From a bacterium (GTDB lineage Bacteria > Electryoneota > RPQS01), in the NCBI GenBank assembly GCA_036504735.1, contig DASXUQ010000019.1:248001-312000 (forward strand): a stretch of DNA of 64,000 nucleotides, read 5' to 3'. Below, piece by piece: positions 8,762-43,026 of the stretch. The translations under genes were made by a program, and so were the position numbers. How positions within the stretch are numbered: position 1 is the first letter of the stretch; each line of letters begins with the position of its first letter. The notes under the pieces were generated by a model that did no database searches, was not told the origin of the DNA, and saw only the letters and a program-made list of their open reading frames with translations.

Positions 8762-9205
8762 TCAACGTTCTCCTTCCAGAACGGACGCCGGAGCCCGGCG
8801 TGCCGCAACAACTTTTTGCCCGGTCGAGGAACCGCCGGCGGAGGATCCTTTGGGCCGCACCCAGTCGAGGTCTCCCTTGCCCCATACATACGCCAGGCCC
8901 ACCGCGAGGATCAGAATGAACACCGCCATATCCACCCACGCGAACAGTCCCATGCGTTTCAGATTGATAGCCCAGGGGAAAAGGAACAAGACTTCCACGT
9001 CGAACACGAGGAAGATCAGCGCCACGACGTAGAACCGGGTATTGAATCGGATCCACGGTGTTCCTACGGCTTCCTCACCACACTCATAGGTGGAATTCTT
9101 GATGGGATTGGGTTTGTGAGGAGCCACGAGGCGACTGACCGAGAGCGCAAGCACGACAAAGCCCGCTCCGGCCAGAAAGAAGATCAGAATCGCGGTAAAC
9201 GACAT
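8762..9205 (-). CDS. nuoA: NADH-quinone oxidoreductase subunit A; first gene of the nuo operon
   Basis: A 147-residue three-helix membrane subunit. The conserved loop is [20 protein letters not shown] near residue 31 (the cysteine loop next to the quinone site), followed by [20 protein letters not shown]. The C-terminal 30 residues are polar and longer than in many NuoA proteins. It is the promoter-proximal gene of an eleven-gene order A-B-C-D-H-I-J-K-L-M-N in which E, F and G are missing. Confidence 0.95.
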
Positions 9206-9277
9206 AGGGGGAAAGCCTGAAGGTAAAGCAGTTCAGGAGGCAGATTCAAACGCCGGGAAGCGCTGGAGTCCTGCCGT

Positions 9278-9307
9278 GTAACAAGCGGAGTTTGAAGAAA
9301 TTGTCAA
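9278..9307 (-). promoter_or_regulatory. candidate nuo operon promoter
   Basis: On the minus strand a perfect TTGACA (9302-9307) is followed after 18 bases by TGTTAC (9278-9283), about 75 bases upstream of nuoA. The -35 is good and the -10 is weak, so this is only a candidate. The rest of the 282-base gap between the thioesterase gene and nuoA is AT-rich and shows nothing else I can name. Confidence 0.3.
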
Positions 9308-9487
9308 AAGCCCTGCATGCGAAACTTTGCACATGGGCTTTTAAATAGCAGAAAATCTGCCGCCACAATATACGCCTTCTGACTAAAAGATGCAATAACC
9401 AACTTTGACATCTAATTATGAGCAAATCAATCAGTTATGCAAGGGAAGCCGCATAGAATTAAGAATTAAGCGGCACAATCGCCGATT

Positions 9488-9955
9488 TCACATGCCACTA
9501 TCTACAACCTTATCAACGGCGGGAGGCGTTGCCATGAACTTAGCCTGTGCGGCAGCCCGGACACGACCCTCCTGCCAGACCTCTGCGCTGAGGTAAATAA
9601 TGCGTGGCGTAATTTTCTCAATTCGCCCGCGCACCGTCGCTGTAATGTTCAGCCGGACAGGCTCCCGGTAGCGCACCACCAGTTCCGCGGTCACGGCGTT
9701 CATGCGGCGGGCAAACAGACTGTTGACCATCGCGCTGTCCAGCATGGCGGCAATCACACCGCCGTGCACGATCTCCGAATAGCCTTGAAAACGCGGTTCG
9801 CAGGCAAAGTCCGCTTCGATATCACCACCTTCGATGATGCGAAACTTCAGCTGCAAACCTTCCGGATTGGCCGAGCCTGCGATCCGGCAGTTGGGATGAA
9901 TGACATCCCGGACTTCCGCCAGAATCCGGTTGGCGGAAACAATGTCCAGTTCCAT
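9488..9955 (-). CDS. PaaI-like hotdog-fold thioesterase
   Basis: A 155-residue single-domain hotdog protein. The family core is GYSEIVHGGVIAAMLDSAMV near residue 60, with the HGG turn and the downstream aspartate expected in PaaI/YigI-type acyl-CoA thioesterases. It probably hydrolyses an acyl- or aryl-CoA ester, but the substrate cannot be read from sequence. It stands alone between the nfn genes, which end at a terminator, and nuoA, so it may have its own promoter. The start ATG is at 9955. Confidence 0.8.
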   Translation of the reverse strand: MELDIVSANRILAEVRDVIHPNCRIAGSANPEGLQLKFRIIEGGDIEADFACEPRFQGYSEIVHGGVIAAMLDSAMVNSLFARRMNAVTAELVVRYREPVRLNITATVRGRIEKITPRIIYLSAEVWQEGRVRAAAQAKFMATPPAVDKVVDSGM

Positions 9956-25841: not shown

Positions 25842-27452
25842 TTAGAAGCGGTTCATCTCTTCGTCGCTATCCAGCGGAATGGCTCGCTTCGGTTTGACGG
25901 ACGGGCTCTTCTTCGACAGATTAGCCTTTGGACGCCGCACGGTTTGGAATGATTGTGCCCGTGAATACGCCTGTGCTCCATCTTTTCCGCCGCCATTAAC
26001 CAGAGCCGTCAACTCATTGACCAGATCGGTCAGGCTTTCGGCCTGGCCCGCCATCTCCTCGGCGGCACTGGCGCTTTCCTCCGCGTTGCCGCTGTTCTGT
26101 TGTGTGACCGCATTCATCTGCGTCACCGCGCCGTTGATCTGTTCAATGCCCTTCGACTGCTCCGCACTGGCGGCCGCGATCTCATCCACCAGATTGGCCA
26201 CCTTGCCCGAGGCCGTCGTCACATCACCCAAGGCCGTCTTCAGCCCGTCCACGATCTGCACTCCACCATTAACCCGGTTCACGTTTTCTTCGATCAGGCT
26301 ACCGGTATTCTTGGCCGCTTCAGCCGCACGCATCGCAAGATTCCGCACTTCTTCTGCGACGACGGCGAAACCCTTCCCGGCTTCCCCGGCACGAGCCGCT
26401 TCCACCGCGGCATTCAGCGCCAACAGGTTGGTCTGGAAGGCGATCTCATCGATGGTCTTGATGATCTTGGACGTCTGGTCACTGGCAGACTTGATGTCCT
26501 TCATCGCCGCGTCCATGGTGTCGGTGCCCTTGGCCGCCTTGTCCACCAGGCTCTTCGTCTCGCTCATGAGCTGGGCAACGGTACGGGTGTTGTCCGCATT
26601 CTGCTTGGTCATCGAGGACAACTCTTCCAAGCTGCTGCTGGTCTCTTCAATCGAGGCTGCCTGCTCCTGCGATCCTTGGGCTACACCCTGCGCCGAAGAC
26701 GACACCTGCGTGGCCGCGCTGGCGATATTGCTCGCCCCTTCACCCGCCGCGCCCACGATCTGATTCATCCGCCGCGAGATATTCAAACTGAGGAAGATGC
26801 CGAACGCCAAGGCCGCGAGGATGCCGCCGATGGCGAAGGACAACGCCAGCACTTGGGAGCGGCCCGCCTGCACGTCCGCTAACTTGGATGTCTCATCGGC
26901 CGACTTGATGTTCAGGTTGACCAGATCCACCAGCTTGCCCATCAGCTCGCCGCCGATCTGACCGAAGTTGCCGAACGCGTGTTTGTTCATGACAGCCATC
27001 GTCTGCGAGGCTTCCGACTGAGACCGCGCGTTCATGTAACTCTTGACCTCCGGCACATACGAGGTGTATTCCTGTTTGTAGGCATCCATCAGACGCGTGA
27101 TGTCCTTCCAGAGCGCTTCCTCGTCGGCGCTGCGGGGCAGGCCTTCGAACTCTTTGCGGGCATCGTCCATCTGCTTCCAATACGTTTCGCCTTGTCCTTC
27201 GAACAGACGGCGTTTTTCGTCCGGGTAGGCCGGATTCAAAACGCAGTTGCAGATCAGGCGGATTTTCATCTGACCATCCTGCACCTTGGCCAGCGAGGTG
27301 AGTGCGGGAATGCTCTTCGCCCCGAGGGCGTCCAGGCTTTTCTTACCGCCGGCAACGCCGGAGAAGCCCACCCAGCCGACAATGCATAAGACGGCTGCTA
27401 CCACACAGAAAGAACCAATCAACTTGAACTTCAGAGACTTATTCGCGAACAT
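25842..27452 (-). CDS. methyl-accepting chemotaxis protein (MCP-1), small four-helix sensor, HAMP-less
   Basis: A 536-residue transmembrane chemoreceptor. TM1 is at about residues 9-31, a 170-residue periplasmic helical sensor follows, and TM2 is at about 202-224. A short linker with no recognisable HAMP domain leads to the signalling hairpin, whose tip is [20 protein letters not shown] near residue 340. Adaptation regions are recognisable ([18 protein letters not shown] and [15 protein letters not shown]). The sensor contains a CNC motif in [17 protein letters not shown] near residue 65. The C-terminus is the array-wide tail, here [17 protein letters not shown] lies eight bases before the ATG. 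It follows cheW-1 by 74 bases and is nearly identical to MCP-3 even in its sensor. Confidence 0.95.
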
Positions 27453-27526
27453 GACGTCAACTCCAGTTACGCTACTCCTACGAGCGGGTTCATTTGCGTT
27501 TGCATTAATCCTTACATGAAGCCAGC

Positions 27527-28024
27527 TTATTGCTCCGCAATCAAAACGAGGTCCTTGTCACAGAGCACCTTGCTGATTTCGAGCAATATTTTAACACGAC
27601 CTTTGGCTTTGGCCATGCCGAGGATAAAGTCATTTTGCACCGCCACGCCCACGTTGGGAGCATCCTCGATGTCCTCCCCCCGGATGTCCAGCACTTCCGA
27701 GACCTTGTCCACCACTACTCCCATCAGATTGCCCTGAACGTCCACCACGATGATGCACGTTTCCGCCGTCTGCTCCGTGCCTTCCATCCCGAACTTCAAC
27801 CGCAGGTCGATCACCGGGATCACCTTCCCCCGCAGATTGATCACCCCTTTGACATAGGCCGGCATCCCCGGCACCGCCGTCGTGCTCATGCTCCCGATAA
27901 TCTCCCGTACCTTCAAAATCTCCAACCCATACTCTTCGTCTGCTAACTCGAAGGTAAGGTACTTGCCTTGACGCTGGTCTGCAGTCGGACCCGCCGTCGT
28001 TGATATCCGAGTCTCCGAACTCAT
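27527..28024 (-). CDS. cheW: chemotaxis adaptor CheW-1
   Basis: A 165-residue single-domain CheW, which links receptors to the CheA kinase. The core begins [20 protein letters not shown] near residue 21 and includes [19 protein letters not shown], as in the family. From about residue 20 to 150 it is identical to CheW-2; only the N-terminus and last residues differ. AAGGAGG precedes the ATG. It is 30 bases after MCP-2 and 74 before MCP-1, giving an mcp-cheW-mcp transcription unit. Confidence 0.96.
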
Positions 28025-28054
28025 CGAGCCTCCTTCAGATTTTTGACATTGATT

Positions 28055-30166
28055 CTAAAACTTCGACGGTCCGTCTGCACTATCCAGAGGGATCACGAGT
28101 TCCGGTTTGAGCAGATCTGCCTTCGCCTGTCGGGCTGCTGCCGTGCGTGCAGGCTGACGTCGATCTGCGCTGGCGACTTCGCGCTTCGCTGACTGTTCGT
28201 CCTGACCATTAACCAGCGCCGTCAGTTCATCGACCAGATCGATCAGGCTTTCAACCTGTCCGGACATCTCTTCGGCAGCACTGGCGCTCTCTTCGGCGTT
28301 GCCGCTGTTCCGCTGCGTCACCGAATTCATCTGCGTCACTGCCACATTGATCTGTTCAATGCCCTTCGACTGCTCCGCACTGGCGGCCGCGATCTCATCC
28401 ACCAGATTCGCCACCTTGCCCGAAGAGGTCGTCACATCGCCTAACGCCGTCTTCAGCCCGTCCACGATCTGCACCCCGCCGTTAACCCGGTTCACGTTTT
28501 CTTCAATCAGGCTACCGGTATTCTTGGCCGCTTCGGCTGCACGCATGGCAAGATTCCGCACCTCTTCAGCGACGACGGCAAAGCCTTTGCCCGCTTCCCC
28601 GGCACGGGCCGCTTCCACCGCCGCATTCAACGCCAGCAGGTTGGTCTGGAAGGCGATCTCGTCGATCGTCTTGATGATCTTGCTGGTCTGATCGGACGCG
28701 CTCTTGATGTCCTTCATCGCCGCGTCCATCGTGTCGGTGCCCTTGGCCGCCTTGTCGATCAACGTCTTGGCTTCACTCATCAGGTGAGCAACCGTCTTGG
28801 TGTTATCCGCGTTCTGCCTGGTCATCGAGGCCAGTTCTTCGAGGCTGCTGCTGGTCTCTTCAATCGACGCTGCCTGCTCTTGACTGCCCTGCGCCACCTC
28901 CTGCGCGGAAGAAGACACCTGAGCAACACCGGAGGTAATCGTGCGAATTCCATCTTCGATGCTGGTAGACGAGCGCTGCAGACCGGCGGTAAGATGGCGC
29001 CCGAACATCAAGGCGGCAAAGCCCGCAAGGACGAGAATGATAATACTGCCGATCACCGACCATCTCAAAATACTGTTCATTGCGGATTCGGCGACCTTGA
29101 CGGAACTCAGGAAGTCGTCTTCCCAAGTGCCGGCACCGATAACCCAGTCCCACGGAGCAAAATAGGCGAGCGCGACAACCTTCGGCTTGGCCTTATTGTC
29201 CGACTTGTTCTTCCACGAGTACTGATGGAAGTCCACATCCTTCGGCGCCAGCACTGTGGCCTTCTGAATCAGTTCCTGAATGAACGGGTGTCCATCCTCG
29301 TCTTTGGACTCCCAGAGGTTCTCGCCATCGCGCTCCCCTTTGTAGGAGATCAGATAGTGGCCCTTTTGGTCGCCCTTGCCGGCCAGCACATACACATAGC
29401 CGGTCTTTCCCACTTGGACACTCTGAATGGCCTTGCGCACGCTTGCCGCCGCTTCCTGCTTTACTCCCGTAAAGAGCATGCCGATGACCTGGCCTTGCGC
29501 ATCCTTCAGCGGTTCATATGCCGCCTGATACCATGCGTTCACGACAAAGGCACGGCCTCGATAGGTCTGTCCGGATAGGGCCGCCTGAACCACCGCGTTT
29601 CGCGTCCCGCCCGGTTCCACGGCAGGAATATACGTGCCAACCGCTCGCGCGCCATTAGCTCCCATTACGTTGGTCGCGACGCGCAGCATATTCCCTTCCT
29701 CGTCCATTCTCTGAAAAACTGTACACGTTGAGCCGGTAAGTGAACCTACGAGGTCCACCAGAGGAGTCGCTTTCGACGAATCCCGGTTCTGCCCGAGCCA
29801 TTGGTTCCCTACATACAACTTCGGCAAAGTAACAGGTGTGACTGCCTTCGAGAATTGGTTCGTCGCTTCCCATGTCACATGTTCATGGGTGTTGCGAATT
29901 CCGCCGGACTTTTCCGCAGTTTGCCTTGCAACGGCGAGGCTTGTGTTGACCTGCTGCTGAATCAGATCATTCGCCGCCTCACACATACCGTAAACATCCC
30001 GCGCGATCTGCGAGAGATTTCCCTTGCCTGCGTCAATGAGTTGGCTCTCCAACTGGACCTTCGCGCGCTGCTGTTGAATCACTGTCAGCGTCACGATCAC
30101 CAGCACAGGAAGAATTGCCGCCGATAATGCCACCCCTACGATTTTCGTACGAATACTTAATTTCAT
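28055..30166 (-). CDS. methyl-accepting chemotaxis protein (MCP-2) with large Cache-type sensor
   Basis: A 703-residue chemoreceptor. TM1 is at about residues 9-31. A roughly 330-residue extracytoplasmic domain follows, resembling the Cache_3-Cache_2 fusion, with [20 protein letters not shown] near 205, a [17 protein letters not shown] strand near 250 and [17 protein letters not shown] near 345. TM2 is near 367-390. The signalling hairpin is almost the same as in its neighbours, and the tail is [13 protein letters not shown]. Cache domains commonly bind small molecules such as organic acids or amino acids; the ligand is unknown. It is the only receptor in the array with this sensor. AAGGA lies six bases before the ATG. 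Confidence 0.94.
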
Positions 30167-30249
30167 GGCTTGTCCTTAAGCAAAGTGCTTCTGGTTTGGG
30201 CCGCCATCTCCGGAGCGCTCTGCCGTGGCTTCGAAGATGAATTTACGGC

Positions 30250-30285
30250 AAAAATAAAACGACGGCATAGTTGATATGCCGTCGT
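30250..30285 (-). terminator. terminator-like hairpin in the MCP-2 leader
   Basis: A ten-base-pair stem ACGACGGCAT/ATGCCGTCGT with a seven-base loop followed by TTTTATTTTTG on the minus strand. It lies 84 bases upstream of the MCP-2 start and no gene ends before it, so it may be a transcription attenuator. Confidence 0.65.
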
Positions 30286-30805
30286 CGGTACTCATAAAGT
30301 CGCCGCGAGAACGTTGAAGCGCTGCATCGCACCGTTCAGGATCATCGTCAGGCGTATCTGTGCCCACGTGTCCTTTTCAGCCGCCGCACCCATGCGATGA
30401 TTCGTCACTTCCGCCACTGTGTTCTCCGCAAGGTAATTTTACTCGAATAGCAGAGGTGTTCGCTTCGCAGCGCGTGGGGTCACGACGAGCAAAACGTCTG
30501 TCTGCCGATGAGCCTTTGACTCCACCGTACCTAATTCGATGCGGAAAACACGGATGCTAATCTACCGGGGAGGTGTTAATTACGGTCTTTGGTATTTGCA
30601 AATGAAGTGCCGAGACGCTGATAATACACAATTAAGCTTCTAAGCCGTTAGAAATCAGACCTTCATTTTATAAGAATTTTCCGAACCCGTGCCTTGTTTG
30701 CTGAGTGCCGCCGCCGGGTTGCGCCTGATTTAAGCCCCTTTTTTCCCTTGTGACGAATCATGTTGTCATAACGAAACCTAAGGGTATGAACACACTCCAA
30801 ACAGC
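30286..30805. other. gene-free region upstream of MCP-2
   Basis: About 520 bases with no convincing protein gene. A 17-codon frame (minus strand, ATG at about 30345) ends just before the terminator-like hairpin and could be a leader peptide, but it has no clear RBS. The far part (30570-30720) is AT-rich and may hold the promoter; I see no clear -35/-10 pair. Confidence 0.4.
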
Positions 30806-30833
30806 AGAACCCCGCCATTCGTGGCGGGGTTCT
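30806..30833 (-). terminator. hairpin after MCP-3
   Basis: A perfect 12-base-pair stem AGAACCCCGCCA/TGGCGGGGTTCT with a TTCG-type tetraloop, 20 bases past the MCP-3 stop. It lacks a continuous T run, so its termination strength is uncertain. Confidence 0.65.
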
Positions 30834-30853
30834 ACAGTTTGGGACATTCCGAC

Positions 30854-32470
30854 TTAGAACTTGCCTAATTCTTCCTCGGTATCCAGTGGGATCATCTTTT
30901 TGGCTTTGGCCGGGGTTCTTGGCGCAGCGTGGCTCAGCGTCCGGGACTTGGGAGTCCGGCTCGTTGATCCGCCGTATGCACTACGTCTTTCTCCGCCAGT
31001 GCCATTCCCGCCATTAACCAGAGCCGTCAACTCGTTGACCAGATCGGTCAGGCTTTCGGCCTGGCCCGCCATCTCCTCGGCAGCACTGGCGCTTTCCTCG
31101 GCGTTGCCGCTGTTCTGTTGTGTGACCGCATTCATCTGCGTCACTGCGCCGTTGATCTGTTCAATGCCCTTCGACTGCTCCGCCGATGCCGCCGCGATCT
31201 CATCCACCAGATTCGCCACCTTGCCCGAGGCCGTCGTCACATCACCCAAGGCCGTCTTCAGCCCGTCCACGATCTGCACCCCACCGTTGACCCGGTTCAC
31301 ATTCTCTTCAATCAATGATCCGGTATTCTTGGCCGCTTCGGCAGCACGCATGGCCAGATTCCGCACCTCTTCAGCCACCACCGCAAAGCCCTTGCCCGCT
31401 TCCCCGGCACGGGCCGCTTCCACCGCCGCGTTCAGCGCCAAGAGATTCGTCTGGAAGGCGATCTCGTCGATCGTCTTGATGATCTTGGACGTCTGATCGG
31501 ACGCGCTCTTGATATCCTTCATCGCCGCGTCCATCGTGTCGGTGCCCTTGGCCGCCTTGTCCACCAGGCTCTTCGTCTCGCTCATGAGCTGGGCCACCGT
31601 GCGGGTGTTGTCCGCATTCTGCTTGGTCATCGAGGCTAATTCTTCCAACGAGGAACTGGTCTCTTCAATCGAGGCTGCCTGCTCCTGGGATCCTTGGGCC
31701 ACACCCTGCGCCGACGACGACACCTGCGTGGCCGCGCTGGCGATATTGCTCGCCCCTTCGCCCGCCGCGCTCACGATCTGATTCATCCGCCGCGAGATAT
31801 TCAAACTGAGGAAGATGCCGAACGCCAGGGCCGCCAGGATACCGCCAATCGCGAAGGACAACGCCAGCACCTGGGAGCGGCCGGCATGCACCTCGGCTAA
31901 GGTAGCCGTCTCATCCGCTGCCTTGATATTCAGATTTACCAAGTCCGCCAGCTTGCCCATCAGCTCGCCGCCGACCTGGCCGAAGTTGCCAAACACGTGT
32001 TTGTTCATCTCGGCCAGTGTTTGCGAAGCTTCCGACTGTGTCCGCGCGCTCATGTAACGCTGGGTTTGCGGCACATAGGAAGTGTATTCCTGTTTGTAGG
32101 CGTCCATCAGACGCGTGATGTCCTTCCAGAGCGCTTCCTCGTCGGCGCTGCGGGGCAGAGCGTCGAACTCCTTGCGGGCATCGTCCATCTGCTTCCAATA
32201 CGTTTCGCCTTGTCCTTCGAACAGACGGCGTTTTTCGTCCGGGTAGGCCGGATTCAAAACGCAGTTGCAGATCAGACGGACTTTCATCTGACCATCCTGC
32301 ACCTTGGCCAGAGCTGTGAGCGACGGAATACTGTTCGCTCCCAGCTCGTCCAAGCTTTTCTTACCGCCGGCAACGCCGGAGAAGCCCACCCAGCCGACAA
32401 TGCATAAGACGGTTGCTACCACACAGAAAGAACCAATCAGCTTGAACTTCAAAGATTTGTTTGAAAACAT
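30854..32470 (-). CDS. methyl-accepting chemotaxis protein (MCP-3), paralogue of MCP-1
   Basis: A 538-residue HAMP-less chemoreceptor with the same plan as MCP-1: TM1 near 9-31, helical periplasmic sensor with the CNC motif in [19 protein letters not shown]2 near 202-224, signalling tip near 340. Sensor differences from MCP-1 are scattered single residues, making this the youngest visible duplicate pair. The tail is [13 protein letters not shown] after a basic, Pro-rich stretch that is not shared with MCP-1. GGAG precedes the ATG with the same spacing as in MCP-1. It is 74 bases after cheW-2. Confidence 0.95.
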
Positions 32471-32544
32471 GACCTGAACTCCAGAGTTTCTGCTCTCTCA
32501 AGAGCAGCGTTCAATTACATTTTGTGGTGACTGCGACCGATCTG

Positions 32545-33042
32545 CTACCGCTGGATAATCTGCTCGACGTCGGAATCGCAGAGCACTTTATTAATCTCCA
32601 GCAATATTTTGACGCGACCTTTGGCTTTGGCCATGCCGAGGATAAAGTCATTCTGCACGGCCACACCCACGTTGGGAGCATCTTCGATGTCCTCCCCCCG
32701 GATGTCCAGCACTTCCGAGACCTTGTCCACCACCACCCCCATCAGATTGCCCTGCACGTCCACCACGATGATGCACGTTTCCGCCGTCTGCTCTGTGCCC
32801 TCCATCCCGAACTTCAACCGCAGGTCAATCACCGGGATCACCTTCCCCCGCAGATTGATCACCCCTTTGACATAGGCCGGCATCCCCGGCACCGCCGTCG
32901 TGCTCATGCTCCCGATGATCTCCCGTACCTTCAAAATCTCCAACCCATACTCTTCGTCTGCTAACTCGAAGGTAAGGTACTTGCCCGCTCTTTGATCCAC
33001 ACCGGTTTGGGTGGGACCGGCGGCGCCAGTCTGTGCGCTCAT
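32545..33042 (-). CDS. cheW: chemotaxis adaptor CheW-2
   Basis: A 165-residue CheW with a core identical in protein sequence to CheW-1 over about 130 residues. The N-terminal 20 residues (MSAQTGAAGPTQTGVDQRA) and the C-terminal 12 are different. AGGAGA lies a few bases before the ATG. It forms a cheW-mcp cassette with MCP-3. Confidence 0.96.
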   Translation of the reverse strand: MSAQTGAAGPTQTGVDQRAGKYLTFELADEEYGLEILKVREIIGSMSTTAVPGMPAYVKGVINLRGKVIPVIDLRLKFGMEGTEQTAETCIIVVDVQGNLMGVVVDKVSEVLDIRGEDIEDAPNVGVAVQNDFILGMAKAKGRVKILLEINKVLCDSDVEQIIQR

Positions 33043-33354
33043 GCTGCTCTCCTCTTAGATGAATCACGATACCCGCCGCCGGATTTGCGCCATGCCGGTG
33101 TCAGGTTATCATGCATGCCGTAAAATTTCTCACAAATCCCGAAAAAAGAAAAGAATTCGGACCCGCGCAGCCTCACCGCGCGGGACAGACGCACGCCAAA
33201 AGTGCGGCATCCTTGTCGCACTTTTGGGCAAATCCGAGGCCCATAATACAAATCGGGCCTCAAGAGTCCGTAATCAAAAGTATTTGCCTTGATGACCCAA
33301 CTGCAAAGGCGGCAGGCTCTACCCGGCAAAAGGAAGCAAAGTGTGTTGCCAATC
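33043..33354. other. gene-free region upstream of cheW-2
   Basis: About 310 bases without a supported gene. It contains a perfect 11-base-pair hairpin CCAAAAGTGCG/CGCACTTTTGG (33196-33227) without a T run, and a seven-base-pair GAGGCCC/GGGCCTC dyad (about 33235-33260). The cheW-2 promoter should lie here but no clear elements are visible. Confidence 0.4.
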
Positions 33355-33393
33355 TAAAACAGCAAACGGAGAGCAGATATGCTCTCCGTTTGC
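33355..33393 (-). terminator. rho-independent terminator after MCP-4
   Basis: A perfect 14-base-pair stem GCAAACGGAGAGCA/TGCTCTCCGTTTGC with a four-base loop, followed by TGTTTT on the minus strand, 46 bases past the MCP-4 stop. Confidence 0.85.
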
Positions 33394-33439
33394 GTCCAAG
33401 GTCGGGAGTTAATTCAGTGCTTGAAGTTGCCGTTCACTC

Positions 33440-35047
33440 TTAGAACTTCCCGAGTTCCTCATGACTATCCAGCGGAATCGCGTGGCGAGCTGCGGCGGGC
33501 GCGCTCTTGGAGAGCTTCGCCGCCGGGCGCTTCAAGGTCGAACTGGCAGGCTTCGACTGATAGCTGGGGCGGGCCGACTTGTCGCGTCCGTTCACCACCA
33601 TCATCAGCTCACCGACCAGATCGGACAGATTTTCGGCCTGGCCCGCGGCTTCTTCGGACGCGGAGGCGGCCTCTTCGGCGTTGGCCGAGTTCTGCTGCGT
33701 CACCGCATTCATCTGCGTCACCGCCACATTGATCTGTTCGATCCCCTTGGACTGTTCATCCGATGCCGCCGCGACTTCATTGGCCAGATTCGTCACCTTG
33801 TCCGCCGCCGCCACCGTCTGACCCAGCGTGGTCTTGAGCCCGTCCACAATCTGCACCCCGCCGTTGACCCGGTTCACGTTTTCTTCGATCAGCGATCCGG
33901 TGTTCTTGGCCGCTTCGGCAGCACGCATCGCAAGGTTCCGCACTTCTTCTGCGACCACCGCAAAGCCCTTGCCCGCTTCCCCGGCACGGGCCGCTTCCAC
34001 CGCTGCGTTCAGCGCCAGCAGATTCGTCTGGAAGGCGATCTCGTCGATGGTCTTGACGATCTTGGACGTCTGATCACTGGCGCTCTTGATGTCCTTCATC
34101 GCCTGATCCATCGCATTGGCACCCTCGGCGGACTTGCTCATCATGCTCTTGGTTTCGCCGGCCAGCGAGGCTGCCGACTTGGCGTTATCGGCATTCTGTT
34201 TGGTCATCGAGGCCAGCTCTTCGAGGCTGCTGCTGCTCTCTTCAATCGCCGCCGCCTGCTCCTGCGACCCTTGGGCCACCCCCTGCGCCGCCGACGAGAC
34301 CTGCGACGCCGCCGATGCGATCTGCGAGGCCCCCTCCGCCGATTCGGTCACGATCCGGTTCAGCTTGCGGGTTATATTCAAACTGAGGAAAATGCCGAAA
34401 GCAAGGGAGATCAGCACACCGCTGATGCCGAACAGGATGGCCATCACCCGGCCACGGCCAGCCGCCGTGTTGGCGACAGCCATGGCGCTGTCCGCGTCCC
34501 GACTCGTGATTTCGTTCAAGACATCCAGACCCGCAACCGCATCCCGGGCCGTCTTCAGCATGGAACCTTCGAGCAGGTCATGCATTTCGGCAAGCAATTC
34601 CTGCGACTCCTTCGGATTGCGGCTGGCGATATAGGCCCGCGCCTTCATGTCGAGCTGCGCGAATTCCTGCTTCCATGCATCGAACTTCGCCTTGAAATCC
34701 TTGAATGCTGCCGTGGCTTCGTCGCCGTGCTTCAGCGATTCATACAGTTTGAAATCCTCTTCTATGCCCTTCCACGCCTTGTCCATCTGCGCGGGATATT
34801 CCTGCTGGCGCTCTTTCGAAAGCTGCGGATCCATGATTTGGCGGTAGAGCATGCGAACCTGAGTCATTTCCTTGGAACAGTCAGTGATGGCATTCGAACT
34901 GGGCATGAGACGCCCACCGATATCCGACATGTAGAACTGCGTAGTGGAGACACCGGATATTCCCACCCAGGCAACCAGCGACAGAATAGCGGCTACGATA
35001 CAGAACGACCCGATCAGCTTGAACTTAAGGGACATATTCGCGAACAT
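33440..35047 (-). CDS. methyl-accepting chemotaxis protein (MCP-4)
   Basis: A 535-residue HAMP-less chemoreceptor with a four-helix-type sensor that differs clearly from MCP-1 and MCP-3 ([19 protein letters not shown] near residue 66, no CNC motif). The signalling domain is the most divergent of the six, for example KIVKTIDEI instead of KIIKTIDEI and a [20 protein letters not shown] segment. The tip itself is still identical. The tail is [13 protein letters not shown]. The start at 35047 (MFANMSL) is eight bases after AGGAG. It follows cheW-3 by 87 bases. Confidence 0.95.
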
Positions 35048-35134
35048 GATCACAACTCCTATGTAGTGCGCTTCCGCAAAAGCGCGGGTGATTTGCTTTG
35101 GACTACCTCTGACGTTGAAGTGCGAGCAACGCGC

Positions 35135-35629
35135 TCACGCCACCAGGTCGGCAATGGCCGTCTCCGAGAGGACCTTATGGATCTCCAGCAATATTTTGAC
35201 ACGACCTTTGGCTTTGGCCATGCCGAGGATAAAGTCATTCTGCACTGCGACACCAACATTGGGAGCATCCTCGATGTCCTCCCCCCGGATGTCCAGCACT
35301 TCCGAGACCTTGTCCACCACCACCCCCATCAGATTGCCCTGAACGTCCACCACGATGATGCACGTTTCCGCCGTCTGCTCTGTGCCCGCCATCCCGAACT
35401 TCAACCGCAGGTCGATCACCGGGATCACCTTCCCCCGCAGATTGATCACCCCTTTGACATAGGCCGGCATCCCCGGCACCGCCGTCGTGCTCATGCTCCC
35501 GATGATCTCCCGTACCTTCAAAATCTCCAACCCGTACTCTTCCCCCGCCAACTCAAATGTCAAGTACTTGCCAGCTCGAACATCTGCACCAGTCCCTGCT
35601 GTGGCGCTGGTTTGTGTCTGCCCGCCCAT
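35135..35629 (-). CDS. cheW: chemotaxis adaptor CheW-3
   Basis: A 164-residue CheW. The core differs from CheW-1/2 at only a couple of positions (FELAGEEYG for [17 protein letters not shown] for FGMEGTEQ). The start at 35629 (MGGQTQTS) follows GGGAG with five bases spacing; a longer frame to 35713 lacks an RBS. A sigma-28-like promoter lies about 220 bases upstream with a terminator-like hairpin in between. Confidence 0.95.
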   Translation of the reverse strand: MGGQTQTSATAGTGADVRAGKYLTFELAGEEYGLEILKVREIIGSMSTTAVPGMPAYVKGVINLRGKVIPVIDLRLKFGMAGTEQTAETCIIVVDVQGNLMGVVVDKVSEVLDIRGEDIEDAPNVGVAVQNDFILGMAKAKGRVKILLEIHKVLSETAIADLVA

Positions 35630-35730
35630 GTCGTCTCCCTCGCCGGTTAGTAAGACCAAATCCGGAGTTGCTTTTTCACGCAACTCAAGCGTGTTTCCTG
35701 TTGTAAACCGCATTGGAGCCGACTGCTACC

Positions 35731-35780
35731 AAAAAACAAGGCACAGCCTCGGGTCCTTGAGAGATCCCATGACTGTGCCT
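35731..35780 (-). terminator. terminator after the response regulator, in the cheW-3 leader
   Basis: AGGCACAG/CTGTGCCT outer stem with an inner GGG/CCC pairing, followed by TGTTTTTT on the minus strand. It is 109 bases past the response-regulator stop, but also about 60 bases downstream of the sigma-28-like start point, so it may act as an attenuator or define a short RNA. Confidence 0.7.
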
Positions 35781-35846
35781 GAAAACTCGCAGTTCTATTA
35801 CTGCGCGGATAGGCTCCCCACACAAATGCGGGTATGTACGTTCCAG

Positions 35847-35873
35847 TTATCGGCCACCCATTAGAAAACTTGA
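35847..35873 (-). promoter_or_regulatory. near-consensus sigma-28 (FliA) promoter
   Basis: On the minus strand TCAAGTTT, an 11-base spacer and GCCGATAA. The known FliA consensus is TAAAGTTT-N11-GCCGATAA, so 15 of 16 positions match with exact spacing. It begins 16 bases after the response-regulator stop and points at cheW-3/MCP-4. This ties the array to flagellar gene control. Confidence 0.75.
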
Positions 35874-35888
35874 GCGCCGATTAAATGA

Positions 35889-36650
35889 TCATGCAGTCTG
35901 ACTTTGCAACAATCCCTCGAGCTTCTTGCGCAGGTCCGCTATTTCTTTTGACTTGAAGGAGCGTTTGGTTGCCTCCAGCGTCCGTACAGCCTCTTGCAGC
36001 CCCGCTTCGAGGCACACCGTTCGGGGACTCTTGAAATCCTCAGAAGCATCGGCATCCTTGTCGCGCGAGGGCATGGCTTCAATCAGCCGGGAGATGTTCG
36101 CAACCGCCCCGAAGATATTGCGCAGCGATGTAGCAATGAATGTCTTCGCCGCCATACTTGCATTCTCGGTGTGCGATGCTTCGATCAATGCCGTCAGATT
36201 GTCCATGTTCGTCAGCCAGTGATGCATCGCCCGGCGTGTGTCTATAATGGTGCGATACACGTGATAGCGCCTCACCGCCGATTCGGCCTGAGTAAGCAGT
36301 TCCGGAATATTCAACGGCTTGGTCAGATACGCAAACACCGGCAGTCGGAACAGCACCACGGCAGACTCCACCGACGGATGTCCTGTCACAATGATGACCG
36401 GCAAACCCTGGTGTCGTGGTGGAATGGAATTCACCAATTCGAAACGCGTGTTCCCCGGCATCTGTATGTCCGCAATCAATAGTTCGTAGTCGTTCTCCGC
36501 GAGCATCTGTATCGCCGTCGAACCGTCCGGAGCCGTGTCACAGGCATAGCCTGTATGCCGCAGCAGATCCGCAAGCGATTCGAGAAAGACCTGGTCGTCG
36601 TCGGCGATTAAGATTCGCGCGCTTGAAGGCAAGTCCATGCTGTGAACCAT
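35889..36650 (-). CDS. response regulator with receiver domain and unassigned C-terminal region
   Basis: A 253-residue protein. Residues 10-130 are a complete receiver domain: acidic pair in RILIADDDQVFLESL, phosphoacceptor aspartate in LLIADIQMPG near 62, the threonine in VIIVTGHPS and the lysine in AYLTKPLNIPELL. The remaining 120 residues are predicted helical and have no DNA-binding domain I recognise. A middle segment (MHHWLTNMDNLTALIEAS) may resemble a histidine-containing helix, and the C-terminus looks coiled-coil (SFKSKEIADLRKKLEGLLQ). The start at 36650 or the ATG at 36638 are both possible; neither has a clear RBS. It could serve the neighbouring receptors. Confidence 0.85.
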   Translation of the reverse strand: MVHSMDLPSSARILIADDDQVFLESLADLLRHTGYACDTAPDGSTAIQMLAENDYELLIADIQMPGNTRFELVNSIPPRHQGLPVIIVTGHPSVESAVVLFRLPVFAYLTKPLNIPELLTQAESAVRRYHVYRTIIDTRRAMHHWLTNMDNLTALIEASHTENASMAAKTFIATSLRNIFGAVANISRLIEAMPSRDKDADASEDFKSPRTVCLEAGLQEAVRTLEATKRSFKSKEIADLRKKLEGLLQSQTA

Positions 36651-36784
36651 GTGGTATAGATTGTTCGTACCGGAGACTCACATCCTGCCGCCACGACGAT
36701 GTTATTTCGTAGTTATACGGCTTGTTGCGCATACGGCATGCGAGTGTTGAGTGTCCGGGTGCTCACTTAAGAGCAGAAATCGTG

Positions 36785-36967
36785 CTAAGGGCTCTTCTCA
36801 TCAAAACATCCATACGTCGCCAATCCAATCAACTCCGTAACCTTATATTCATATTGCGATTCATCCTGCGGTCTTACGAATTGCATGCGCGATTTATGCA
36901 TTGCAGCTCCAGCCTCCATGCAGATGTTGCCTACTTCTGTAAGGTCTGTCGGCCTGAACCCGGACAT
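36785..36967 (-). CDS. possible 60-residue small protein downstream of MCP-5
   Basis: A short frame starting 11 bases after the MCP-5 stop, with GAGGACGG just before the ATG. The protein (MSGFRPTDLTEVGNICMEAG at its start) is soluble, of ordinary composition and matches no family I know. The tight spacing and RBS-like sequence suggest co-expression with MCP-5. It fills much of the gap to the response regulator. A chance frame cannot be excluded. Confidence 0.4.
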   Translation of the reverse strand: MSGFRPTDLTEVGNICMEAGAAMHKSRMQFVRPQDESQYEYKVTELIGLATYGCFDEKSP

Positions 36968-36978
36968 CCGTCCTCGTC

Positions 36979-38610
36979 TCAGAATCGGTCCAACCCCTCG
37001 CTCTCCTCGCGGCTGTTCAGGGGGATCACTCGCTCCGGTTTGTGCTCATTCCGTTTCTGAGCCTTTGTGGCGGCCTTCCGCATGGATTGCTTGGGGACCA
37101 TGGTTTGCGCCGCTCCCCTGCGGATCATGCCGTCGTTGCGCTTTCCACTGCCGTTAACCAGCGCGGTGAGTTCATTGACCAGATCGGTCAGGCTTTCGGC
37201 CTGGCCCGCCATCTCCTCGGCGGCACTGGCGCTTTCCTCGGCGTTGCCGCTGTTCTGTTGTGTGACCGCATTCATCTGCGTCACTGCGCCGTTGATCTGT
37301 TCGATCCCCTTCGACTGCTCCGCACTGGCCGCCGCGATTTCCTCCACCAGATTGGCCACCTTGCCCGAGGCCGTCGTCACATCACCCAAGGCCGTCTTCA
37401 GCCCGTCCACGATCTGCACCCCGCCGTTGACCCGGTTCACGTTTTCTTCGATCAGCGATCCGGTGTTCTTGGCCGCTTCGGCAGCACGCATGGCAAGATT
37501 CCGCACTTCTTCAGCGACGACGGCGAAACCCTTCCCTGCTTCCCCGGCACGGGCCGCTTCCACCGCCGCATTCAACGCCAAGAGATTCGTCTGGAAGGCG
37601 ATCTCGTCGATGGTCTTGATGATTTTGGAGGTCTGATCGGACGCGCTCTTGATGTCCTTCATCGCCGAGTCCATCGTGTCGGTGCCCTTGGCCGCCTTGT
37701 CCACCAGGCTCTTTGTCTCGCTCATGAGTTGGGCCACCGTGCGGGTGTTGTCCGCATTCTGCTTGGTCATCGAGGACAACTCTTCCAAGCTGCTGCTGGT
37801 CTCTTCAATCGACGCTGCCTGCTCCTGGGATCCTTGGGCCACTCCCTGCGCCGAAGACGACACCTGCGTGGCCGCGCTGGCGATATTGCTCGCCCCTTCA
37901 CCCGCCGCGCCGGTGATACGGTTCAAACTGCGCGAAATACTCAAACTGAGGAAGATCCCAAAGGCCAGAGCGGAGCACATTCCCAGCAAGGCAAACAGCG
38001 TCGACAGAGTGCGCGATGTGGCCGCACTGGCAACGGCTTGCTTTCCCTGCTCCTCGGCGTCCCGCGCACAGACTTGGGTAGTGCTATCCACCTTGTCCAT
38101 AACAGCATCCGCTGCCGCTCCCAATTCCCCATAGAGCGACGCGTTAACTTGAGCCAAGAGTTGTCTCGCCTCAGCCTGATTCCGTGCGCGCATATAACTT
38201 TGTACTTCCGGCACGAAGCGGGAAAAGGCCTGTCGATAGGCATCCAGCGCTTTGTTGTCGTCCTTCCACTCCGCGGCTTCCGCAGCGGTGTGTGGTCCCT
38301 TATCGTACATCTTCCACGCCGCGTCCAGTTCACTCCACTTCCGGTTGACGCTGCTCTCCCACTCCTGTTTGCGGTCCGCAGGATAAACCGGATTGACGAT
38401 CTCGTCGCACAGCATGTCAACTCCAATGAGCATACTGCGAATCTGATCCAAGACGGTTAACTGAGGAATTTGGTTGTCGGCGAACTCACTCGCCGTTCGG
38501 CTTTCACTCTGCGCTGTGGAAAAGCCAACCCAACCTACCACCCCGACAATCAGGCCGACAATGCAGAACGATCCGATTAACTTGACTTTCAGAGACATGT
38601 TAGCAAACAT
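36979..38610 (-). CDS. methyl-accepting chemotaxis protein (MCP-5)
   Basis: A 543-residue HAMP-less chemoreceptor with TM1 near 9-31, a four-helix-type sensor ([19 protein letters not shown] near 65) and TM2 near 202-222. The signalling region is nearly identical to that of MCP-1. The tail is [16 protein letters not shown], slightly longer than in its neighbours. The start at 38610 ([15 protein letters not shown]) is eight bases after AGGAG; the upstream extension in frame has no membrane-protein character. It has no adjacent cheW, unlike the other small-sensor receptors. Confidence 0.95.
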
Positions 38611-38996
38611 GTGCATTTCTCCTGCGCGTGTTGTCTCTGCCGAAACCCGATGGTGCGTAAAACTGTGTTTGGAAACCGCGCCCCCGAAATCCGGCAGCGA
38701 ATTCATGTGTGTTGCGTGAGGACTCGGTGACAAAGCGGCTCGCGCTCCTTCCCCGATGAATCATCCTCGGATTCTCTCATATGTGCATCTTCATCCCGTC
38801 CCGGGTGAAGCGTGTCGTTAGCGCTCGCAAATCAAGGGCCGTTATGAGTGGCACTGACCCTATTCTCTGATAATTGTGGATTTAACGATACGGTTACCAA
38901 GAACAGGGGTCCCCTTTCGTTTTTCCTTTGCTGGAGTAGGCAAAAGAGTGTCCGATCCCCTCGCGCCGCCAGGGTCTGCAATGCTGCCGGACTGCA
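38611..38996. other. gene-free region upstream of MCP-5
   Basis: About 385 bases between MCP-5 and the MCP-6 terminator. No gene is supported. It presumably carries the MCP-5 promoter, but I see no clear elements. Confidence 0.4.
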
Positions 38997-39029
38997 ACAA
39001 AAACGGAGAGCCGCGCAGGCTCTCCGTTT
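38997..39029 (-). terminator. rho-independent terminator after MCP-6
   Basis: A perfect 12-base-pair stem AAACGGAGAGCC/GGCTCTCCGTTT with a five-base loop followed by a T run on the minus strand. The stem core is shared with the terminator after MCP-4. Confidence 0.88.
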
Positions 39030-39053
39030 CCATGTTTCGACAGTGTGGGTAGC

Positions 39054-40679
39054 TTAAAAGGCCGAAATCTCGTCGCGCTCATCCAGGGGAATCTTCCGTT
39101 CCGGATTTGTCGCTCCTGTGCGCTTGGGGCGATCAACCGTGCCGCGTTTTGCGGGGCGCTTCAGGGCTGCCGGTCCCGCCGGACGCTCATAGTGAGGCCG
39201 ACCGCTCTTCTCCCCACCATTGACCAGCACTGTCAGCTCGCTCACCAGATCGGTCAGGCTTTCGGCCTGGCCCGCCATCTCCTCGGCGGCACTGGCGCTT
39301 TCCTCGGCGTTGCCGCTGTTCTGTTGCGTCACCGCATTCATCTGCGTCACTGCCACGTTGATCTGTTCAATCCCCTTCGACTGCTCCGCCGATGCCGCTG
39401 CGATTTCAGTGACAAGATTGGCGACCTTGCCCGAAGAGGTCGTCACATCGCCCAAGGCTGTCTTCAGCCCGTCCACGATCTGCACCCCGCCGTTGACCCG
39501 GTTCACGTTTTCTTCGATCAGGCTACCGGTGTTCTTGGCCGCTTCAGCCGCCCGCATCGCCAGGTTGCGCACTTCTTCGGCCACCACCGCGAAACCCTTG
39601 CCTGCTTCTCCGGCACGGGCCGCTTCCACTGCCGCGTTCAAGGCCAAGAGATTCGTTTGGAAGGCGATCTCGTCGATCGTCTTGATGATCTTGGACGTCT
39701 GATCGGACGCGCTCTTGATATCCTTCATCGCCGCGTCCATCGTCTGCGTTCCCGCCGCCGCCTTGTCGATCAGCGTCTTGGCTTCACTCATCAGGTTCGC
39801 AACCGTCTTGGTATTGTCCGCATTCTGCTTGGTCATCGAGGCCAGCTCCTCCAGTGACGAACTGGTTTCCTCAATCGACGCCGCCTGCTCCTGAGATCCT
39901 TGGGCGACGCCCTGCGCCGACGACGACACCTGCGTGGCCGCGCTGGCGATATTGCTCGCCCCTTCGCCCGCCGCGCCGGTGATGCGGTTCAAGCTGCGCG
40001 AAATACTCAAACTGAGGACAATTCCGAAGCCCAAGGCAAGGATCACGGCCAGCACTCCAATGACACTCGCCATGACCTTGGAACTGGCTGCGCTCGACTC
40101 GGCGTTCTTGATTTCGCCTTGGACGTCCTGTACGCAGCCGTCAATCAATTCCTGCAATTTATCAGCCGACGTCTTGGCAGCCGCAGCCCACTCGGGCCGG
40201 GCCACAATGTCATTCATCTGGTCGAGCAGAGCCGCTTGCTCCTTCGAGTCACGCGATTGCTGGTAACGCAGCGCCACGGGATGCAACTCATCCAGATTGC
40301 GCCGCCAGTCCTTCATCGCGGTCATGAGATCTTTCCATTCCGCCGCGCTCTTCTCGTCCATCGGAATCGATTCATAGTTCTTGATTCCATCGTCTATGAA
40401 TTTCAGGGCTTCTTCCATATCGCTGGCGTAGGCTTGGCGCCGCTCAAAGGTCAGAGCAGGATTCAACATGCGAAAATAATCCATGCGTGCCAGGGTCTGG
40501 CCATGACGAATCAGTGCCAGCCCACGATAGCTGGGAAATTTCTCATTGCCGATCAGATCCACATTTACTTGCCCCGTATTCGCGGCCGAGAAGCCCACCC
40601 ACCCGACAATGCTCACCAGCAGCGCCACAATGCAGAAGGATCCGATAAGCTTGGATTTCAAAGACAAATTAGCGATCAT
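39054..40679 (-). CDS. methyl-accepting chemotaxis protein (MCP-6)
   Basis: A 541-residue HAMP-less chemoreceptor. TM1 is near 9-31, the sensor is four-helix-type with [19 protein letters not shown] near 65, and TM2 is near 203-225. The signalling hairpin shares features with both MCP-1 (QGVAQ segment) and MCP-2 ([30 protein letters not shown]), suggesting recombination between paralogues. The tail is [19 protein letters not shown] lies seven bases before the ATG at 40679. It follows cheW-4 by 69 bases. Confidence 0.95.
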
Positions 40680-40748
40680 CTCGTGACTCCTCTAAGGGTT
40701 TTCTGCTTTCGAAGCAGATGAGTTGTTGTACAAAGTCCACGGCTCAGT

Positions 40749-41246
40749 TCAAGCGTCCGCCAGCGGGGAGTTGGCCATGGCCTCCGAGAGAACTTTGTTG
40801 ATCTCCAGCAATATTTTGACACGACCCTTGGCTTTGGCCATGCCGAGGATAAAGTCATTCTGCACTGCGACCCCCACGTTGGGAGCATCCTCGATGTCCT
40901 CCCCCCGGATGTCCAGCACCTCCGAGACCTTGTCCACCACTACCCCCATCAGATTGCCCTGCACGTCCACCACGATGATGCACGTTTCCGCCGTCTGCTC
41001 CGTGCCCTCCATCCCGAACTTCAACCGCAGGTCGATCACCGGGATCACCTTCCCCCGCAAATTGATCACCCCTTTGACATAGGGAGGCATCCCCGGAACC
41101 GCCGTCGTGCTCATGCTCCCGATGATTTCCCGAACCTTCAAAATCTCCAACCCATACTCTTCGCCCGCCAACTCAAATGTCAAATACTTACCGGCTCGTT
41201 GATCTGCGGAAGTGCCGGCCCTTGCTTGAGCGACTTGTTGTTCCAT
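40749..41246 (-). CDS. cheW: chemotaxis adaptor CheW-4
   Basis: A 165-residue CheW. The core matches the others except for single changes such as GMPPYVKG for GMPAYVKG. The N-terminus (MEQQVAQARAGTSADQRA) and C-terminus (LSEAMANSPLADA) are its own. AGGA is before the ATG. It forms a cheW-mcp cassette with MCP-6 at the upstream end of the array. Confidence 0.96.
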   Translation of the reverse strand: MEQQVAQARAGTSADQRAGKYLTFELAGEEYGLEILKVREIIGSMSTTAVPGMPPYVKGVINLRGKVIPVIDLRLKFGMEGTEQTAETCIIVVDVQGNLMGVVVDKVSEVLDIRGEDIEDAPNVGVAVQNDFILGMAKAKGRVKILLEINKVLSEAMANSPLADA

Positions 41247-41642: not shown

Positions 41643-42167
41643 TTACACGCGCTCCAGGACGCCGGAGCACATCGCGCCTTGCGGGCACCCGGAATCCGAT
41701 TGCCGGGAGAAGGTGGACATGACTCTTGCGCAGGTGTGAATCAGGTCAACCAGTTCCCGTTTCTCGTCGAGCAGCGCGCGCATCTCGAGGGCATGCCGCA
41801 CGGTGAGAAACAGTTCCGCCCGGCTCCACGGCATGGGGAGCGCAAGGTGCGCCACTCCGTCGTCGCCAACCTCCGATGCGTAACAGGCCGTCAAATCCCG
41901 GGTCGCCATGACCCGCAGCGTGTCCGGCCAACGCAGCATTACGACCCGCAACAGCTCGTCACTGCATACTCCGGGCGCCTGTTCACCGCACAGAATAATC
42001 GCGACAGGTTGCGAAGCCAGAATTTCCAATGCGCTTTCCACACTCGCCGCCGCAATGACCTTATGCGTGCGACGATCAAGTAATTGCTCAACAGACCTCG
42101 ACAACCGGTGATCGCTGGCTACCACCAATACCGCTTGAATCGACGCGTCTGTGCTTTGATCAGTCAT
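41643..42167 (-). CDS. degenerate receiver-domain protein
   Basis: A 174-residue protein that aligns with CheY-like receivers (AVLVVASDHRLSRSVEQLL, then AIILCGEQAPGVCSDELLR, then TLRVMATRDL and LALPMPWSRAELFLTVRHAL). The acidic pair is replaced (VASD), the phosphoacceptor aspartate position is a glycine (LCGEQAP) and the KPW lysine is a methionine (PMPW). The pattern around PMPW and WPDT resembles receivers of the RpfG/DQRMPG type. It is therefore likely phosphorylation-independent. A 45-residue tail has three cysteines. The start at 42167 follows GGAG by six bases. It lies 34 bases after the Fis-like gene. Confidence 0.7.
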   Translation of the reverse strand: MTDQSTDASIQAVLVVASDHRLSRSVEQLLDRRTHKVIAAASVESALEILASQPVAIILCGEQAPGVCSDELLRVVMLRWPDTLRVMATRDLTACYASEVGDDGVAHLALPMPWSRAELFLTVRHALEMRALLDEKRELVDLIHTCARVMSTFSRQSDSGCPQGAMCSGVLERV

Positions 42168-42201
42168 GAGCCGCTCCATGGGGAAGGGTTGCCGTGCGGT
42201 T

Positions 42202-42552
42202 TCACTCATCCCGGTCACTGCCCAGCGTGTTTCCCACGGGCAGTATCACAGTGATCGGTGAACCGGATTCCAGCAAGGTCATATCGATGCTGCGCATCGC
42301 GTTCATGTCAATGCCCAACTGGTTGATCTTTCGAGTCAAGCAGCGGCGGGACACACCGAGAGCGCGTGCCGTTCGTGTCACATTGCCCGCAAACCGCCGC
42401 AGTGAGATGCTGATAAACGCTGTCTCGAACGCGTCTTGGGCACCGGCCAGGTCTACCGGGCAGTTCTTGATGACTAGTGTGAATAACTTCGGTTGGCGCA
42501 ACGGAACCTCGTCGCTGCCAAGCTCCTGAGCCGTAAACTCCAGGACCGCCAT
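42202..42552 (-). CDS. Fis-type helix-turn-helix DNA-binding protein
   Basis: A 116-residue protein. Residues about 45-90 match the Fis/NtrC C-terminal DNA-binding domain: ETAFISISLRRFAGNVTRTA followed by RALGVSRRCLTRKINQLGID. There is no AAA+ sigma-54 module and no receiver in the chain. Downstream, after 34 bases, is a degenerate receiver protein, so the pair looks like a split ActR/RegA-type regulator. The start at 42552 (MAVLEFTAQ) has AGGAG ten bases upstream; a longer frame lacks an RBS. Confidence 0.72.
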   Translation of the reverse strand: MAVLEFTAQELGSDEVPLRQPKLFTLVIKNCPVDLAGAQDAFETAFISISLRRFAGNVTRTARALGVSRRCLTRKINQLGIDMNAMRSIDMTLLESGSPITVILPVGNTLGSDRDE

Positions 42553-43026
42553 TCGTCTCTGACTCCTGAATCGCGCATGTAATACCTTCCGACCCACCGC
42601 AGGGAAGCCGCGCCGGCGTATCTTGGCCGCGGGCATCGCGACGCAAAATGCTTTTCCACGCTATCGCAAATGCAATGCCGTCTGGCAATGGGAATGCAAT
42701 GTCTCACTTATGGGAAAATCTCTTCGCACAAGTGGGACAAGTTTGACTAAGGGCGGCGCGATCAACCGTGGAAGGCGGTCGAAATGCTCTGCCATGATTT
42801 GAATTACTTGACAGTTGGGCCTCAATCCGTATCTACCGGGTAAATGAGGATAGTTTTGTCCTCCTTTAAATATCGCACATATTTGGCGAAGAATCAATAA
42901 TACTGACCACCCCCTCGGCCACAACCCCAAATTAGTTGAGCCAGAGTGTGGTTGGCTTGTTGGGGGGCTTTTAGGAGGATGATGTCGTCTAAACTCGTGC
43001 AAAAAGTAACAAGCCCTAAAGCTTAC
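42553..43026. other. intergenic region between divergent regulator and vor genes
   Basis: About 475 bases. It holds a candidate plus-strand promoter (TTGACA at 42808, 16-base spacer, TATCTA at 42830; the -10 is weak). An imperfect GC-rich dyad follows (about 42908-42970) in which a CCCCCTCGGCCA arm faces TGGCTTGTTGGGGGG, followed by CTTTT, which could be an attenuator ahead of the small gene. A 127-codon minus-strand frame here has no support. Confidence 0.4.

Follow-up and report, generated by a model that had tools for sequence, protein, structure and literature searches.

In Campylobacter jejuni, the Group A chemoreceptors Tlp2, Tlp3 and Tlp4 possess identical signalling domains beneath sensors of about 30% identity (PMC9769880). 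The tlp genes show extensive recombination, with inversions between their conserved halves (PMC6433261). The 'E. coli-like' che clusters of Geobacter combine several CheWs, for which several explanations exist, with several 34H receptors that end in a class-specific xFxxF C-terminal pentapeptide, and they lack cheZ (PMC2577667). The locus described here is an array of six methyl-accepting chemotaxis protein (MCP) genes and four genes for the adaptor CheW, built largely from cheW-mcp cassettes. It lies in a 64,000-nucleotide stretch (the window) that corresponds to bases 248001-312000 of the 475-kb contig C19 of genome G000, a 4.16-Mb draft in 19 contigs that is 98% complete. Sorting tails of the T9SS type (Por_Secre_tail) in this genome hint at an affiliation with the FCB group.

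Recombination within the genome probably homogenises the signalling modules and CheWs of this single-CheA array beneath diverse sensors. This reading draws on the anatomy of the array, the presence of a single cheA, a core operon without cheW, a contrast at silent sites between sensors and signalling domains, and conflicting histories within MCP-2; recombination is the presumed cause of the likeness between copies.

The array and its pathway

The minus strand carries the six MCP and four cheW genes between positions 25842 and 41246 of the window, where the initial annotation had placed them; all are open frames with matches over the Pfam cut-offs (Table 1). They are transcribed in the order cheW-4, MCP-6, MCP-5, response regulator, cheW-3, MCP-4, cheW-2, MCP-3, MCP-2, cheW-1, MCP-1; the response regulator was absent from the earlier list. 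The description of each receptor as having its own nearly identical adaptor holds for likeness, with the four CheW cores being 93-95% identical at the DNA level. It does not hold for number: there are four CheWs for six MCPs, MCP-5 is without a cheW, and MCP-2 lies in one unit with cheW-1/MCP-1. The genes cheA, cheR and cheB, correctly noted as missing from the vicinity, are all found on other contigs.

The genome encodes a single CheA (locus L002), in which Hpt, dimerisation, ATPase and CheW domains are all present. The core operon, cheA-cheR-cheD-HDOD-cheB, contains neither cheW nor mcp. Flagellins are also encoded. CheWs of the array class occur at five sites, four in the array and one in a seventh cassette, cheW-5/MCP-7, on contig C9 (G000:C9:67774-69690, locus L001), and an mcp directly follows each. 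Because the core operon has no cheW, every copy of this class sits in a receptor cassette. Most likely, the array serves flagellar chemotaxis via the one CheA, a coupling predicted from the genes. The seven membrane receptors (six in the array, one on C9) would differ in their periplasmic sensors and have signalling domains that are nearly interchangeable, and cassette-encoded CheW would couple them to CheA, with none supplied by the core operon. The dosage balance suggested by the initial annotation is compatible with such a core operon, and adaptor dosage may bring a benefit.

Sensors and signalling domains diverge differently

Over 300-nt windows, identity among the six signalling regions is about 74-95%. 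At the level of domains, it is 90-100% between signalling domains of the same type and about 25-40% between sensors in pairs other than MCP-1/MCP-3, with an abrupt jump near the second transmembrane segment in most receptor pairs. Divergence was measured at fourfold (silent) sites, where the mismatch expected of unrelated sequences is 0.66 for the sensor and 0.56 for the signalling domain. MCP-4 and MCP-7 differ at 28/45 sites in the sensor (62%) and 21/133 in the signalling domain (16%; p = 9e-9). The corresponding values are 27/41 (66%) and 22/128 (17%) for MCP-3 and MCP-5 (p = 1e-8), and 24/43 (56%) and 30/128 (23%) for MCP-1 and MCP-5 (p = 1e-4). In most receptor pairs other than MCP-1/MCP-3, sensors are at or near silent-site saturation, with signalling domains and CheWs below it. 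When the same signalling genes are compared across genomes, they are saturated (66/106 fourfold sites differ between MCP-1 and G009), which indicates that the low silent divergence in the array is not due to codon constraint.

In the first half of the gene, cheW-1 to cheW-4 have 1-6 mutual differences in about 30 fourfold sites; against the relatives, the figure is about 14-20 of 22-28. CheW-3 is array-type although its neighbour, MCP-4, has a different, 'type B' signalling domain, and the CheWs are presumably interchangeable. Separately, cheW-5 shows a suggestive mosaic break, its first half being array-like and its second half not.

Gene conversion or crossover between near-identical stretches would rewrite the CheW cores and MCP signalling domains while sparing the sensors. 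Signalling modules and CheWs kept alike in this way would make any incoming sensor readable by the common pathway, since one set of CheW, CheA, CheR, CheD and CheB could serve whichever sensor lands on such a module.

MCP-2 and conflicting trees

The sensor of MCP-2 matches Cache receptors of the relatives G002, G009 and G004 (447, 436 and 349 bits, respectively) and is orthologous to them, an old and conserved Cache sensor. The gene order CacheMCP-cheW-MCP is common to G000 and G002. In G002 and G009 the orthologues lack the IPL tail and carry another kind of signalling domain; MCP-2 ends in the IPLD...F tail, and its signalling domain groups with the array. Forcing this domain to group with the relatives' Cache receptors was rejected by the approximately unbiased (AU) test (p = 3.5e-8). 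An orthologous sensor joined to a local signalling domain is the decisive case, and suggests that an old sensor received a new signalling half by exchange.

The closest match of the MCP-1/MCP-3 sensor is that of G009_C154a (208 bits, versus 154 for MCP-5). A group of MCP-1, MCP-3 and G009_C154a is weakly seen in the sensor tree (67/58) and is rejected by the signalling data (p = 9e-68). The separate trees recommended in the initial annotation thus reveal conflict between sensor and signalling domain in these two cases; the CheW protein trees are poorly resolved, and CheW lineages were not seen to pair with MCP lineages cassette by cassette.

Counter-evidence and alternative explanations

Several results weigh against homogenisation by recombination. 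A GENECONV-style permutation of silent-site runs gave scattered signals only among the MCPs (global p of 0.003 for MCP-4/MCP-5, 0.026 for MCP-1/MCP-5 and 0.037 for MCP-5/MCP-7) and no significance among the CheWs. With sensors other than MCP-1/MCP-3 only about 25-40% identical, their silent-site counts rest on uncertain alignment, and MCP-4 and MCP-7 are rejected as sensor sisters only weakly (AU p = 0.037). No recent homogenisation is visible at silent sites in the sister genomes G002 and G009: their copies cluster by genome in the protein tree yet are saturated at silent sites, so any homogenisation there is old. The CheW-like proteins on contigs C2 and C18, described below, mean that the cassettes are possibly not the sole source of adaptors.

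The same exchange may have run in the opposite direction, with new sensor DNA recombined onto a resident signalling domain. Such sensor capture is possible but less likely. It fits the sharp rise in identity near the second transmembrane segment and the occurrence of both four-helix-bundle (4HB) and Cache sensors on one signalling type. However, homogenisation extends to the CheW cores, where no sensor is present, and the CacheMCP-cheW-MCP order kept with G002 favours in-place overwriting of the signalling part of MCP-2, the only receptor for which direction is settled.

Recent tandem duplication of cheW-mcp cassettes followed by fast sensor diversification, without recombination, is an unlikely account of the whole array. 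This history, put forward by the initial annotation, accords with the tandem, same-strand layout and describes one pair well. MCP-1 and MCP-3 differ at 19/96 silent sites in the sensor (20%) and 34/128 in the signalling domain (27%), and are whole-gene duplicates, with cheW-1/MCP-1 and cheW-2/MCP-3 resembling a whole-cassette duplication. As a general history it is contradicted by several other pairs, in which near-saturated sensors overlie unsaturated signalling domains, and by MCP-2, whose sensor is orthologous in other genera but whose signalling domain is local. Under homogenisation by recombination, cassette duplication would account for part of the growth of the array, with this pair as the recent case.

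It is more doubtful still that each CheW is dedicated to its neighbouring receptor, making the cassettes separate signalling units. Specific CheWs have been proposed for Rhodobacter and Geobacter (PMC2577667), and the consistent cheW-mcp adjacency in the family (see below) is in line with this idea, but the CheW cores differ by few residues, independent of receptor type, as cheW-3 beside MCP-4 illustrates, and only one CheA is available. Finally, multiplied or chimeric copies might be feared in a 19-contig draft with copies so alike, but an assembly artefact, which the initial annotation had raised, is very improbable given that exact repeats reach no more than 119 nt inside the array and 131 nt between it and the C9 cassette, that every copy is distinct and lies between unique sensors on a 475-kb contig, and that contamination is 0.01%.

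Cassettes in relatives and other phyla

Pairing was surveyed for 82 single-domain CheW genes at 79 related loci from many phyla, counting an MCP within 400 bases. An MCP follows cheW in 26 of the 82 and precedes it in 10; the contig end was reached in 8 more. The expectation that a receptor with its own cheW would be uncommon was therefore mistaken, as the pair occurs across many phyla, at a minimum of 26 of these genes (at least 26/82). The accompanying proposal was to look for pairing in other members of the lineage. In the window's family, each of the 12 cheW genes belonging to this class adjoins an MCP: G000 has five of them, G002 three, G009 two, and G001 and G004 one each. The G001 pair lies within the core operon, between cheA and cheR, and that of G004 adjoins cheA in divergent orientation, while the cassettes of G000, G002 and G009 are located away from cheA.

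In Chitinispirillales, UBP15, Planctomycetes, Verrucomicrobia, Terriglobia and other groups, cheW genes of the same family directly precede an mcp whose product ends in an IP[LFM]...F tail. These loci mostly contain one pair, and the six receptors and four CheWs described here form the largest array among the loci compared. The Verrucomicrobia locus L070 has three consecutive cheW-mcp cassettes, and its three receptors have signalling domains that are 82-85% identical, near-identical tails, and sensors that are 14-23% identical. Two receptors at the Terriglobia locus L051 are 96% identical in signalling and 21% in sensor, with silent differences at 7/87 sites in the N-helix and tip versus 13/22 in the sensor. 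Both loci show the same sensor/signalling contrast as the array.

More speculatively, the array could be a standing platform for sensor acquisition, in which recombination would use the near-identical cheW cores and signalling domains as landing sites, re-attaching incoming or drifting sensors to a single output, and the cassette-borne adaptor would keep pace with receptor number. The same mode might then have arisen in several phyla, namely in this lineage, Verrucomicrobia (L070) and Terriglobia (L051).

Five further relatives (G007 and G010, and also G005, G006 and G008) encode flagellins and have no MCP signalling domain at E <= 1e-10. With the exception of G005, they have no CheA-sized CheW protein either. 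These bacteria are possibly flagellated without chemoreceptors.

Features of the array

Table 1. Array genes in order of transcription, with positions in the window
Feature	Position	Strand	Description	Basis
cheW-4	40749..41246	-	165 aa adaptor	PF01584, 137 bits
MCP-6	39054..40679	-	4HB sensor, no HAMP detected, signalling domain, IPLD...F tail	PF12729, PF00015, alignment
MCP-5	36979..38610	-	4HB sensor; without its own cheW	PF00015, PF12729
Response regulator	35889..36650	-	Receiver and unassigned C-terminal region of ~130 aa	PF00072, 79 bits
cheW-3	35135..35629	-		PF01584
MCP-4	33440..35047	-	4HB sensor; signalling domain of 'type B', nearly the same as in MCP-7 (contig C9)	
cheW-2	32545..33042	-		PF01584
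MCP-3	30854..32470	-	Sensor 89% identical to that of MCP-1	
MCP-2	28055..30166	-	Cache_3-Cache_2 sensor; array-type signalling domain and tail	PF17201, 316 bits
cheW-1	27527..28024	-		PF01584
MCP-1	25842..27452	-	4HB sensor; signalling domain gap-free against E. coli Tsr	

Three of the starts are likely internal ATGs with an AG-rich, Shine-Dalgarno-like stretch upstream: MCP-5 (ATG at 38610, frame open from 38733), cheW-3 (35629, open from 35713) and MCP-4 (35047). Each cheW is separated from the next mcp by 69-87 bases that contain a GGAG-like ribosome site. Most of the larger units are about 170-690 bases apart and, given this spacing, are probably transcribed separately. A search of the cassettes for sigma-28 and sigma-54 promoter patterns found no consistent match and no common motif.

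All four array CheWs are single-domain proteins, matching PF01584 from position 1 to 134 or beyond of 138 with 134-137 bits. Among the array sensors, five are of the 4HB type and one, that of MCP-2, is Cache_3-Cache_2. The PF00015 signalling domain scores 143-156 bits in the five receptors tested, a genome search finds it in all six, and the alignment shows the conserved hairpin tip in every receptor. Residues 225-478 of MCP-1 align gap-free to Tsr 46-299 of 3zx6 (254 residues). The array receptors are thus predicted to have the hairpin length of Tsr and to be 36H-like, a length class assigned from this alignment. The 34H class, a first guess from the Pfam span, is ruled out by the same alignment.

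A HAMP domain usually, though not always, follows the second transmembrane segment of such receptors. None was detected at E up to 1 in MCP-1, MCP-2, MCP-5, MCP-6 or the G009 relative L117:1954-3654; in the alignment, the second transmembrane segment of the HAMP-less receptors continues straight into the signalling helix. All six array receptors have a variable linker and then an IPL[DN]...F end, with the tails MNRF, PSKF, LGKF, LGKF, LDRF and ISAF. In the tethering pentapeptide for CheR/CheB, which forms the last five residues, positions 2 and 5 are aromatic (PMC7390727). The array tails have F at position 5 and an aliphatic residue or P at position 2, and so do not belong to this type; relatives such as L008 end in DFKEF.

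Sequence related to the C-terminal stretch of the response regulator precedes cheW-5 on C9 (L001:7283-7531; tblastn and alignment), and a conserved GGCACAGTC...GCTGTGCC-like hairpin recurs with it. Together they suggest a trace of a larger ancestral cassette. Just upstream of the array, a weak receiver-like protein (41643-42218, minus strand) overlaps a Fis-type HTH protein (42202-42636, minus strand), and the two may be one split regulator.

Other chemotaxis proteins are scattered through the genome. A divergent CheW on contig C2 lies beside an HDOD protein and a receiver. Contig C18 encodes two tandem CheW proteins (L004:7749-8567 and 8922-9737); the first has a CZB zinc-binding domain inserted mid-CheW, and the CheW match of the second is split in the same way. 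CheW-CZB is a rare architecture, found in 1.4% of CZB proteins (PMC8262984). A PAS-HAMP_2 receptor at about 60-61 kb of contig C19 (L005:5547-7601) has two tandem hairpin-tip stretches, matched twice by MCPsignal. On contig C12, a receptor remnant of the array's signalling family, broken across two reading frames (L006:5126-5757), is a decayed member of that family. Two large open frames outside the core operon (1178 and 1048 aa; G000:C18:71251-72624 and G000:C9:83806-85179) each contain both CheR and CheB domains.

Comparison with known systems

Chemoreceptor sensors are gained and swapped freely, yet all must fit one kinase array. Homogenised adaptors and signalling halves under diverse sensors, in several unrelated phyla, would provide a concrete and testable route to this modularity, by which new sensors could be plugged into one common motor circuit. 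A practical warning is that whole-gene MCP trees mix two histories.

Like the Geobacter clusters, the array places several CheWs beside several MCPs. Unlike it, those clusters include other che genes, and their receptors are 34H, whereas the array receptors are 36H-like and have no aromatic residue at position 2 of the terminal pentapeptide. The array resembles Campylobacter Tlp2/3/4 in that receptors of a single genome combine divergent sensors with near-identical signalling domains, although the Tlp sensors are dCache_1 and those here are mostly 4HB, with one Cache_3-Cache_2. In the open-access literature, to which the search was confined, joint homogenisation of adaptor and receptor was not found described. 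The Campylobacter reports concern receptors only; here, cheW lies within the repeated unit and appears to be homogenised too. What is added to the known systems is that the adaptor belongs to the repeated, homogenised unit, and that this arrangement recurs across phyla.

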